Shown in pieces: positions 24,712 to 27,912 of a stretch of DNA of 36,367 nucleotides; the stretch's first letter is position 1, and every line of letters begins with the position of its first letter. This stretch comes from a virus. The notes under the pieces were generated by a model. That model searched no databases, was not told where the DNA came from, and worked only from the letters and a program-made list of their open reading frames with translations. The translations under genes were made by a program, and so were the position numbers. The DNA lies in IMG/VR virus record IMGVR_UViG_3300017917_003808, positions 1 to 36,367 of that record. One strand, given 5' to 3'.

Positions 24712-25140
24712 ATGTCATGGACGTATCAAAATCAACCAGTAGATCGACTACCTGAAGATTGTGTGGGGTTTGTATATCTAATTACAAACACCACAAACGG
24801 CCGCATGTATATAGGCAAAAAATTAGCAAAGTTCTCAAAGACAACTCAAAAAACAGTCAAACTCAAAAACGGCAACAAAAAGAAAAAGAAAATCCGCACC
24901 AAGGTTGAAAGCGATTGGCAAGACTATTACGGTAGCAGCCCTGAGCTCTCCAAGGATGTGGAACTGATAGGCAAAGACAAATTCACCCGCGAAATCCTAT
25001 ATTATTGTAAAAGCAAAGCCGAATGCAGTTACATCGAAGCAAGAGAACAATTTTCCCGACGTGTATTAGAATCAAAAGATTACTACAACGGACACATTCA
25101 AGTACGTGTTCACGGTAGTCATATCATAGGCAAACTTTAA
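24712..25140 (+). CDS. GIY-YIG nuclease-like protein
   Basis: This 142-aa protein has a GIY-YIG type N-terminal signature: VYLI at 21-24 and MYIGK at 32-36. A lysine-rich insert follows (about 40-65, NGNKKKKKIRTK), then DWQDYYGSS at about 68-76 and SYIEAREQF at about 106-114. The Glu in that last motif is a plausible catalytic residue. Such small single-domain nucleases occur in T4-like phages, both free-standing (Seg type, mobile) and as fixed genes. It is 36 bp downstream of gp46, probably on the same transcript, and the next 370 nt are a hairpin-rich non-coding stretch. Whether it is a homing enzyme or a repair/degradation nuclease cannot be decided from the sequence. Confidence 0.75.
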   Translation: MSWTYQNQPVDRLPEDCVGFVYLITNTTNGRMYIGKKLAKFSKTTQKTVKLKNGNKKKKKIRTKVESDWQDYYGSSPELSKDVELIGKDKFTREILYYCKSKAECSYIEAREQFSRRVLESKDYYNGHIQVRVHGSHIIGKL

Positions 25141-25581: not shown

Positions 25582-25917
25582 TTAAAACTGATCTGGCCAA
25601 TCTCTAAACAATGCGTGTTGAATGTTGCCTGATACGAATTGATTAAAGCTCTTGTGTTTGACTTCGAGTTCGCCTTCGAGTGGAGCAACACGACGGAATG
25701 CTGAATCCATTTGTCCCATGTCACGGAACTCCATGAGTATCATCCATTCAGGCATGTCAGCAATACTACGGAATCCCATTTTGCAACGAGTGATTCTGTA
25801 GTTTTCCATTTTGCCTTCAGCAATCAAATGATCAAAGAAACTCTTCATGCCATTGACCCAGTCTAGGTCTGAGATGTCGCCTTCTTTGTCTGCCCAAATT
25901 GTGTATAAGTCTGCCAT
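25582..25917 (-). CDS. Small conserved protein, DUF6614-like
   Basis: This 111-aa protein has the pattern I associate with the DUF6614 family, small proteins of aquatic bacteria with an alpha/beta fold. Matching elements are LYTIWADKEGD near the start, a helix, then MENYRITRCKMGF, MPEWMILMEFRDMGQMDSAF, HKSFNQFV and ending HALFRDWPDQF. The function of the family is not known to me. It is the last gene of the leftward gp26 unit, 3 bp after the 144-aa gene, and ends at a strong hairpin. Its presence in a structural-gene neighbourhood is odd; it may be a host-derived accessory protein. Confidence 0.8.
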   Translation of the reverse strand: MADLYTIWADKEGDISDLDWVNGMKSFFDHLIAEGKMENYRITRCKMGFRSIADMPEWMILMEFRDMGQMDSAFRRVAPLEGELEVKHKSFNQFVSGNIQHALFRDWPDQF

Positions 25918-25920
25918 AGT

Positions 25921-26355
25921 TTACTCCAGTGGTCCTAGTATTTCGAATCCGTCAATTTCGCTTTTGTACAAATGTGCCTGTTCTAGATAGAGATATTTAA
26001 ATCCACGTTGTTTGTAGATGGCGCATTCTGTTTTCATTGTTTCAATGCCCAACCTCAGTTTAGGGTTGTTGTAGTTCCATGCAAATTGATCGCACAGTGC
26101 ATTGTGTTCGTCATAGCGTTTGATCAAACTAAACGCCACTAACTTATCATTGTTGTAGTACCCGATGACATCGGTCATGGGATCAGTGTAACGACTGTCA
26201 AAAATTGGCATCACGCTGGCAAAACGTTTGTGTACACAGTAGTCTCTGTAGATTTTATTGAGTTCGGCAATGTCTGGATATACTAGGTAACTCCATTTTA
26301 CACTGGCAGTGTAATTGGTGCGACTGAGATCGATTCTAGCAAATTGGTAGCTCAT
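25921..26355 (-). CDS. Hypothetical protein, possibly GNAT-fold acyltransferase
   Basis: This is a 144-aa protein. The arrangement of a strand with DVIGYYNNDKLVAFSLIKRY, then DQFAWNYNNPKLRLGIETM, then a helix and YKQRGFKYLYLEQAHLYKSE resembles the later half of GNAT-type N-acyltransferases, especially aminoacyl-protein transferase-like ones, where a strand-helix pair forms the acyl-CoA or aminoacyl site. I do not see a clean Q/RxxGxG/A loop, so activity is unproven. Its ATG overlaps the stop of the 167-aa gene (ATGA), showing tight coupling. It could instead be a phage-specific protein with only a similar fold. Confidence 0.75.
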   Translation of the reverse strand: MSYQFARIDLSRTNYTASVKWSYLVYPDIAELNKIYRDYCVHKRFASVMPIFDSRYTDPMTDVIGYYNNDKLVAFSLIKRYDEHNALCDQFAWNYNNPKLRLGIETMKTECAIYKQRGFKYLYLEQAHLYKSEIDGFEILGPLE

Positions 26356-26855
26356 TTTCTAGGATCCTCTCTGTGCTGGAACAGTGCCTGCAGATAATCT
26401 TCAGGCCAAGTGTCGTAAAAACCTTTGCGTGCTACCAACTTTGCTTTTTCATTTAGATCTGATAAACTTTGTACCAGCGCCAATGCATACTTGCCTTGGT
26501 TCATGATAACACCGTTGACGTTTTCAATGTCTGTGGGATGATCTTCCAAGGCCAGAATATCTACATTGAGTAAAAATTCTTGGTTTGCTGAATCAATGCT
26601 GGCTGCAAACAGTTCATGCGGCCATTCTTGCGGGTCATAGACATAGATAACAACTTCTTTGTTGCCCATGCCGTATCGTGCTCGATTTTTGAGATCGTAG
26701 TAAGGATCTGTGCCTAGATACACCTCGTAGCTCTTTTTTAATCTTGCTGACCGTGCGTACGGACAAGGAGGGAATCCTCCCAGGGCAGGATGTGGAACTT
26801 CTACAAAGTTCACAATCCAGGCTTCTATATCTTGTTTGACAGTTTTGATATCCAT
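26352..26855 (-). CDS. Hypothetical protein
   Basis: This is a 167-aa protein I do not recognise. It has a conserved-looking N-terminal segment (EAWIVNFVEVPHPALGGFPP, then CPYARSARLKKSYEVYLG) with a single CPYA motif, and a middle part with alternating strands (NKEVVIYVYDPQEW, FLLNVDILALEDHP). The CPYA segment faintly recalls the CPFA motif of DUF1415 proteins, but the rest does not clearly agree. The start codon shares one base with the stop of the preceding small frame (TAATG), and its stop overlaps the next start (ATGA), so it belongs to a coupled chain from gp26. No signal peptide or membrane segment is seen. Confidence 0.75.
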   Translation of the reverse strand: MDIKTVKQDIEAWIVNFVEVPHPALGGFPPCPYARSARLKKSYEVYLGTDPYYDLKNRARYGMGNKEVVIYVYDPQEWPHELFAASIDSANQEFLLNVDILALEDHPTDIENVNGVIMNQGKYALALVQSLSDLNEKAKLVARKGFYDTWPEDYLQALFQHREDPRK

Positions 26856-27088
26856 TAGAAAAACGGCAATCTGCTTTTGTTGGTAGTTTCTAGGTTGTCT
26901 TTGATAATCTCTGCAATAGCATCGCGTTCTTGAACGCTCATTTGCATAACGTCATTGTAGCTAGCACCCCCGCGCATGTACCAGGACATTTTGAGACATT
27001 GTTTTCTAATGTCAGCAGCCTCCTGGTCCAGCTCGTTGATCAGCTTGTTGATGCCCTCAAAGTCAAGTCTCAGGAGGCGTTGCCGAAA
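26855..27088 (-). CDS. Frame-shifted C-terminal extension of gp26 (tail assembly chaperone-like, gp51 position)
   Basis: An open frame in the -1 phase relative to gp26 runs from inside the gp26 end to a TAA at 26857-26855. Its peptide looks conserved and functional: LDFEGINKLINELDQEAADI, then KQCLKMSWYMRGGASYNDVM and QERDAIAEIIKDNLETTNKS. I recall similar short peptides next to gp26 in aquatic T4-like phages. No ATG or GTG occurs before that conserved start; the first in-frame ATG (26989) would cut it in half. A -1 shift at A AAT TTT joins residue 275 of gp26 to these 77 codons, giving about 352 aa. The alternative is initiation at ATT (27010) behind AGGAGG. The gene for the 167-aa protein starts on its stop codon. 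Confidence 0.7.
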   Translation of the reverse strand, partial: FRQRLLRLDFEGINKLINELDQEAADIRKQCLKMSWYMRGGASYNDVMQMSVQERDAIAEIIKDNLETTNKSRLPFF

Positions 27089-27094
27089 AAATTT
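27018..27094 (-). promoter_or_regulatory. Programmed -1 ribosomal frameshift signal at the end of gp26
   Basis: On the minus strand the gp26 frame reads A AAT TTT (27094-27088), a canonical X XXY YYZ slippery heptamer. A 9-nt spacer follows (27087-27079), then GCCTCCTG (27078-27071), perfectly complementary to CAGGAGGC (27025-27018): an 8-bp stem with a 45-nt loop. The gp26 stop (27072-27070) sits at the stem/loop border. Heptamer, spacing and stem all fit known -1 signals, and the destination frame encodes a plausible peptide. Confidence 0.65.
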
Positions 27095-27912
27095 GACTGA
27101 TCCAATACTATAGATTGTTCGTATTCGTGACCACAGTTTTCACATTTCAATTGAATTGGTTTGAATTCGCTTTGTTCACGCAGTTCGATAATACGATTTC
27201 TGATTTCAATAAACAGTTTACGATCGCATTGTGTCAAGAATTCATAGATAAACTCAGGCTCAGTGACCAATGCCTGTGGAGTTTGAATGCTTTGAATAGA
27301 GTATTTCAACGCATCGATTGTTAGCTCAGTGATGCGAGCTAGAATCTTGTTGAGTTCTTCAATTTTCTTTTCTTCAGGCAAATCACTTTCTTGAACCACA
27401 GAAATACTTTTTTGTTGTTCAAACTGTAGTTTACCAGTTTCGGTCTGTGAATGATAGTCCATGGGACGGAAATAAATGGTAAGATCACCGTGCGTCATTG
27501 GGGTGGCAAAATCAGGAGCCTGTGTTTTATCCAAGACCTGACGCAAATCTATGGCATACTCACCTTCGGTTTTGCAGTTTGGACAAGTGCTGCTGATTTC
27601 CATGTCGTGTCCAAAACTGGCAATGCGAATAGCTACCAACACAGAGTTAAGATCAGTGGCCGGCATGCCCCATGCGTCCTTAATACTAGGCACACAACTA
27701 TGGATTACGTTTACAGTGGCCTGTCCGTTGTACAGTGCATCTGGGGTTCGGTAGTTGATGTCGTCGATGGCAGTCATTGGGTAAACTGGCAATTCTCCGT
27801 TTTTTGATTCCAGCAACGAACCCTGTGGCCAGTACTCGCCACCGCTGGGCAAACGCAAATAAATGGCGGGTTGACGGAAAAACTGCTTCAATGGATTGAC
27901 ATTTTGGGACAT
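27070..27912 (-). CDS. 26: Baseplate hub assembly protein gp26-like with zinc ribbon
   Basis: This 280-aa protein matches the gp26 family of T4-like phages, which acts in assembly of the central baseplate hub. N-terminal block FFRQPAIYLRLPSGGEYWPQ and ELPVYPMTAIDDINYRTPDA are typical. Two CxxC pairs, CPNC (C110, C113) and CENC (C257, C260), form a zinc-ribbon-like site. Its last residues overlap a -1 frame that extends the protein. It is divergent from the tape-measure-like gene across a 44-bp gap containing late-type boxes in both directions. In lambda-like phages a chaperone pair made by frameshifting lies next to the tape measure, which fits this arrangement. Confidence 0.85.
   Translation of the reverse strand: MSQNVNPLKQFFRQPAIYLRLPSGGEYWPQGSLLESKNGELPVYPMTAIDDINYRTPDALYNGQATVNVIHSCVPSIKDAWGMPATDLNSVLVAIRIASFGHDMEISSTCPNCKTEGEYAIDLRQVLDKTQAPDFATPMTHGDLTIYFRPMDYHSQTETGKLQFEQQKSISVVQESDLPEEKKIEELNKILARITELTIDALKYSIQSIQTPQALVTEPEFIYEFLTQCDRKLFIEIRNRIIELREQSEFKPIQLKCENCGHEYEQSIVLDQSNFFGNAS

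Follow-up and report, generated by a model that had tools for sequence, protein, structure and literature searches.

A conserved -1 frameshift signal at the 3' end of gene 26 predicts short and long forms of a putative T4-type chaperone in jumbo phages and their relatives

Introduction

In the viral DNA studied here, the gene for a homologue of T4 gp26 overlaps a small open frame that continues past its stop codon, raising the question of whether the two frames give two separate proteins or a single protein made in a short and a long form. The second arrangement is that of the tail assembly chaperones G/GT of phage lambda and E/E' of phage P2, where a short form and a minor, -1 frameshifted long form are encoded beside the tape measure gene; the slippery site of P2 is T TTT TTG. 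A first-pass annotation, made from the letters of the sequence, proposed that gp26 and the small frame are such a short/long pair, produced by -1 frameshifting and with an extension related to gp51. The comparative analysis described here bears this proposal out in its essentials: considering the conserved heptamer, its spacing from a covarying stem, the coding constraint on the -1 frame and the homology of the extension to the C-terminus of T4 gp51, we put at about 90% the probability that gp26 yields a short form and a -1 frameshifted long form that together make up a T4-type tail/hub assembly chaperone pair.

Results and discussion

The gp26 gene of the window ends inside an open -1 frame

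The window, meaning the whole stretch of DNA that was analysed, is an IMG/VR virus record of 36,367 bases. Profile matches place its gp26 short form in PF12322 (E=2.6e-17) and phrog_150 (E=1.5e-19), and the gene ends with the codons AAT TTT TTC GGC AAC GCC TCC TGA (Table 1). The -1 frame of the window is already open 67 nt 5' of this stop codon and runs to the TAA at 26857-26855, leaving 76 sense codons after the predicted slip and a joined long form of 352 aa, which is the length that had been estimated before. The beginning of this frame had also been described as lacking ATG and GTG, and neither these codons nor TTG occur in the window between the slip and the ATG at 26989. When the small ORF of the window was compared with PHROG and Pfam, no match below 0.001 was obtained (a weak one to phrog_18291 stood at 0.13), and the idea that it is a member of an independent PHROG or Pfam family was rejected on that basis. 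The adjacent gene on the other side of gp26 is tape-measure-like and lies on the opposite strand, so that the divergence noted in the first-pass annotation is indeed seen; its role as a tape measure is a putative one. The C-terminus of this tape-measure-like protein carries a VanY-type peptidase domain (PF02557, E=1.5e-5; phrog_2649, endolysin).

Table 1. Coordinates of the predicted frameshift locus and of its neighbours in the window
Feature	Position	Strand	Remarks
gp26 homologue, 0-frame short form, 280 aa, C-terminus ...SNFFGNAS*	27070..27912	-	PF12322, phrog_150
Slippery heptamer T TTT TTC (gp26 codons AAT TTT TTC)	27085..27091	-	kept in relatives
Spacer GGCAAC, 6 nt, heptamer to stem	27079..27084	-	same spacing in the 61-sequence alignment A3
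Presumed stimulatory stem, 5' arm GCCTCCTG	27071..27078	-	holds most of the gp26 stop codon
Presumed stimulatory stem, 3' arm CAGGAGGC	27018..27025	-
0-frame gp26 stop TGA	27070..27072	-
-1 frame extension RQRLLRLDFEG...NKSRLPFF*, 76 codons + TAA	26855..27085	-	conserved in all loci examined, coding constraint
Predicted junction peptide of the long form, CENCGHEYEQSIVLDQSNFFR			short form: ...SNFFGNAS
Tape-measure-like gene, 962 aa	27957..30845	+	divergent from gp26; putative role, cf. annotation of its RaK2 counterpart
Next gene, 167 aa, phrog_28122	26352..26855	-	function unknown; ATG overlaps the -1 frame stop (TAATG)

A T TTT TTC heptamer is preserved at the end of gp26

We compared 117 gp26 loci, comprising the window, its IMG/VR relatives (12 and 80 loci from gp26 queries and 13 more from a query with the small frame) and 12 named jumbo phages taken from a phage collection. 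A slippery heptamer of the type X XXY YYZ was found in the zero frame at the 3' end of gp26 in 117 of 117 loci, those of the named jumbo phages included, as T TTT TTC in 113, as T TTT TTT in three (locus L011, XacN1 and RAS14) and as T TTT TTG in one (L012); since the loci are mutually related, these counts are not independent, yet the named phages include gp26 proteins with less than 30% identity to that of the window. The preservation is seen at the level of nucleotides: among the 92 unique loci, the Phe codon at the slip is TTC in 88, compared with 150 of the 690 Phe codons elsewhere in gp26, the codon 5' of the Phe pair is NNT in every case although eight amino acids (N, S, D, T, H, A, R and Y) occur at that position, and the nucleotide that follows the heptamer is G in 87.

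The slippery site initially suggested was A AAT TTT. We rejected it since relatives carry A AGT TTT, A GAT TTT, C CAT TTT and other variants at these positions but preserve T TTT TTY. Considering that the conserved T TTT TTC sits three bases downstream of that candidate, the spacer measures 6 nt and not the 9 nt first given. Frameshifting in the +1 direction was rejected as well, the +1 frame being closed within 4-73 nt of the gp26 stop.

A covarying RNA stem starts 6 nt after the heptamer

The 8-bp stem that the first-pass annotation had drawn across the gp26 stop is present exactly as drawn (Table 1). Folding of the 70 nt 3' of the heptamer gave a mean z-score against shuffles of -2.78, compared with -0.24 for control windows inside gp26, and z fell below -2 in 71% of the post-heptamer windows and in 9% of the controls. 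In alignment A3, which holds 61 relatives, exactly 6 nt separate the heptamer from an 11-bp helix in which 95.8% of the cells are paired and six base pairs change on both sides; none of 500 shuffles reached the covariation of this helix on any of five measures, and pairing dropped to 15-56% when the helix was slid to other registers. RNAalifold returned the same helix with the same spacing and some compensatory pairs in the window's own family, where the signal (14 sequences, 82% paired, with 11-15 of 500 shuffles for three measures) is weaker than in A3. The cyanophage S-PM2 has a different, long and perfect hairpin shortly 3' of its heptamer, showing that the exact structure varies between lineages.

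The alignment of gp26/next-frame junctions, which had been put forward as a check, thus recovers a conserved heptamer, a constant 6-nt spacing and a covarying stem. We presume that this stem stimulates the frameshift, its 6-nt distance from the heptamer falling within the range of about 5-9 nt expected for such structures. On comparative sequence grounds, the frameshift signal at the 3' end of gp26 is real, and from it we infer the slippage itself and its efficiency. Most ribosomes would read on to the TGA (27072) and release the 280-aa short form, and a fraction of them would slip back by one base on T TTT TTC, where both Phe tRNAs could re-pair with TTT TTT with the aid of the stem that starts 6 nt downstream. 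The slipped ribosomes would then add 76 codons, giving a protein of 352 aa whose C-terminal domain is helical, so that the short form would correspond to T4 gp26 and the long form to T4 gp51.

The -1 frame evolves as coding sequence from the slip onwards

The loci recovered with gp26 queries were not selected for carrying an extension, and all of them have a -1 frame that is open across the gp26 stop (in L064 it is cut by the contig end); across relatives, it continues for about 60-80 codons after the slip. When codon differences were scored between similar pairs in the region from the gp26 stop to extension codon 30, which lies upstream of an internal Met, synonymous ones made up 35% in the -1 frame, as against 19% and 7% in the remaining frames, and changes in the -1 frame clustered at third positions. 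In nearly all jumbo-type sequences the extension opens with FFR..LL at the slip, a conservation consistent with a frame that is translated from the slip onwards rather than from a start further 3'.

One could nevertheless propose that two separate proteins are made, with no frameshift involved and the small ORF translated by re-initiation or through an internal start codon (ATG 26989 or ATT 27010, for instance, in the window). An ATG overlaps the gp26 stop in Atu_ph07, Phosso, 121Q and ValKK3, as ATGA or TAATG, and in some others, so that re-initiation could also yield a free small protein in these phages; moreover, a Met codon is conserved about 95 nt past the gp26 stop in many loci and some annotators start the small gene 3' of the slip. 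If separate proteins were the rule, however, one would not expect that the -1 frame through codon 20 holds no ATG, GTG or TTG in 55 of 92 loci (ATG being found in 23 and only GTG or TTG in 14), that conservation begins at the slip and coding selection acts upstream of the conserved Met, that T TTT TTC is preserved as nucleotides, or that T4 gp51 looks like a fused protein (see below). We consider the production of two separate proteins without frameshifting unlikely.

Less likely still is transcriptional slippage on the T run, which would give mixed mRNAs and a long form without ribosomal slippage: a run of six Ts is indeed present in all loci, but it is closed by a C in 88 of 92 instead of growing, and a covarying stem at a fixed 6-nt spacing fits ribosomal frameshifting. 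Finally, one might see the T run and the overlap as by-products of the Phe-Phe pair at the end of gp26, which is itself conserved, and regard the small frame as a product of decay or of chance. This view is already contradicted on comparative grounds and deserves hardly any weight, given that the codon before the Phe pair always ends with T, that TTC is rare elsewhere, that loci retrieved with gp26 alone conserve the -1 ORF and that the stem covaries.

T4 appears to encode with two genes what its relatives obtain by frameshifting

Beyond jumbo phages, we examined the junctions of two cyanophages and of one or a few phages per other T4-like lineage. In the cyanophages S-PM2 and P-SSM2, T TTT TTC stands at the end of gp26, and the small protein annotated as gp51 is what the -1 frame encodes. 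The same heptamer is found in ValKK3 (KVP40 type), avDM12 and Astolliot, phiN3 has T TTT TTT, and RHph_N34 shows the P2-type T TTT TTG that we also saw in L012; in KVP40-type and cyanophage loci, the extension is annotated as gp51 or as a hypothetical ORF. The canonical heptamer was absent from the gp26 junctions of Vibrio K475, Cygsa01, BX-1 and phiMAM1. In the first three of these, the small frame starts at an ATG that overlaps the gp26 stop (TAATG), and this group of four may rely on another mechanism, having switched to translational coupling or to another type of slip (NTT TTY).

The first-pass annotation had put the small frame at the position of gp51, 3' of gp26. This holds for cyanophages, where the small ORF directly follows gp26, but not for T4, where genes 26 and 51 adjoin on opposite strands and gene 51 is divergent. 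Both T4 gp26 and T4 gp51 match PF12322, and the alignment to phrog_150 extends to position 280 of 282 for T4 gp51 but only to 235 for T4 gp26, reaching 281 on an S-PM2 protein fused in silico; for the fused form of the window, phrog_150 coverage ends at 263 instead of 232 and the score rises by about 2 bits, a weak gain if the window is taken alone. An HMM built from seven -1 extensions, with no T4 sequence and no jumbo phages among them, ranked RB43 gp51 (1.9e-7) and T4 gp51 (3.1e-6) first among 1,098 ORF segments, and a profile of 17 diverse extensions that included jumbo phages and the window gave 0.0016 and 0.0028 for the same two proteins. Both extension profiles thus support the presence of the gp51 C-terminal domain in the long form.

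Judging from these phrog_150 spans and profile matches, T4 gp51 looks like a fused long form and T4 gp26 like a short form, and T4 would then seem to use two genes where its relatives frameshift. The T4 pair belongs to the same family as the window protein (PF12322, phrog_150), with short and long forms in T4 and, as predicted, in the window, the C-terminal domain of the long form being a homologue of the -1 extensions, and differs from the window and its relatives in having two separate genes instead of one gene with a -1 frameshift signal, which suggests that the two arrangements are alternative ways to the same protein pair. Cyanophage gp51 was described as having about 20% of the length of T4 gp51 and as similar to its C-terminal region (Sullivan et al. 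2010, PMC3037559), and a frameshift extension would account for this short size compared with T4 gp51. We would give even odds to a broader scenario, in which a frameshifted single gene is ancestral to the T4-like supergroup (jumbo phages, cyanophages and KVP40-type phages), with the covarying stem as its stimulator in the jumbo lineage; the divergent genes 26 and 51 of T4 would have arisen when a duplication fixed the two forms as separate genes, and Ackermannviridae-type relatives would have lost the canonical heptamer. If true, this scenario would also explain the length of cyanophage gp51.

Structural comparisons and the putative chaperone role

The AF2 model of the window gp26 has a pLDDT of 90 and that of the -1 extension, which is helical, a pLDDT of 87. 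Neither model has a clear match among the solved structures of the PDB, a sequence search of the PDB with gp26 and the extension returned no meaningful match, and the VIA-align rows mostly cover a helical stretch (about 147-229) and stay within the background expected for helices. A lambda-type TAC fold could thus not be confirmed by structure comparison, and we found no link in sequence or solved structure between gp26 and lambda G/GT or P2 E/E'. What gp26 would share with these chaperones is the predicted short/long scheme and the proximity of a putative tape measure gene; unlike them, its family has CxxC motifs and its gene is divergent from the tape-measure-like gene.

In BFVD, the gp26 fold matched baseplate hub proteins of the T4 type as well as many giant-phage proteins that are uncharacterised and may be unrecognised relatives; these come from Ralstonia RSL1, RSF1 and RP12, Erwinia Special G, PaBG and Motura. 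Since T4 gp26 and gp51 are listed among the hub assembly chaperones (PMC3004832) and since a tape-measure-like gene is the neighbour of gp26 here, both forms of gp26 would probably act as chaperones together with the tape measure or the hub.

Relation to reported T4-like chaperones and to current gene models

The tail assembly chaperones of T4-like phages were identified by Vladimirov, Gautam and Davidson (2022, Virology 566:9-15), according to two papers that cite this work (PMC10885494, PMC12846349). As cited there, some T4-like phages do not frameshift but carry two genes, a short one and a long, fused one (PMC10885494), and poly-T slippery sites occur in T4-like short-form chaperone genes (PMC12846349). 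These citing papers indicate that both the frameshift and the two-gene solutions were already reported, T4 gp26/gp51 presumably being the pair identified by Vladimirov et al. (2022), and the novelty that had been assumed for gp26 falls away to that extent. A literature search of open papers found no description of the frameshift in the gp26 of jumbo phages. Phages of the Vandenendeviridae/Andersonviridae such as Adele (PMC12846349) offer a close parallel: their short chaperone gene has a T-rich slippery site for a -1 frameshift at its 3' end, and the downstream frame is routinely misannotated, as here; the invariant motif of Adele-type chaperones is GTTTTT, compared with T TTT TTY and a stem 6 nt downstream in the present loci.

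In most jumbo-phage records examined, the extension is unannotated or truncated. No annotation covers it in MIJ3 and RaK2, and it appears as a separate hypothetical gene started 3' of the slip in Munch, CBB, GAP32 and Atu_ph07. Reading the locus as one gene with a frameshift corrects many jumbo-phage and cyanophage gene models that leave the extension unannotated, truncate it or call it an independent gp51, and it gives gp26 and gp51, the hub-assembly proteins of T4, a place within a testable short/long chaperone scheme.

Two further genes of the window deserve mention. A member of DUF6614 (PF20319, E=1.1e-20; family of unknown function) lies 3' of gp26 on the same strand (25582-25917, -). On the plus strand at 24712-25140, directly after genes that resemble the T4 gp46/gp47 recombination pair, a gene encodes a 142-aa protein that looks by eye like a GIY-YIG endonuclease.
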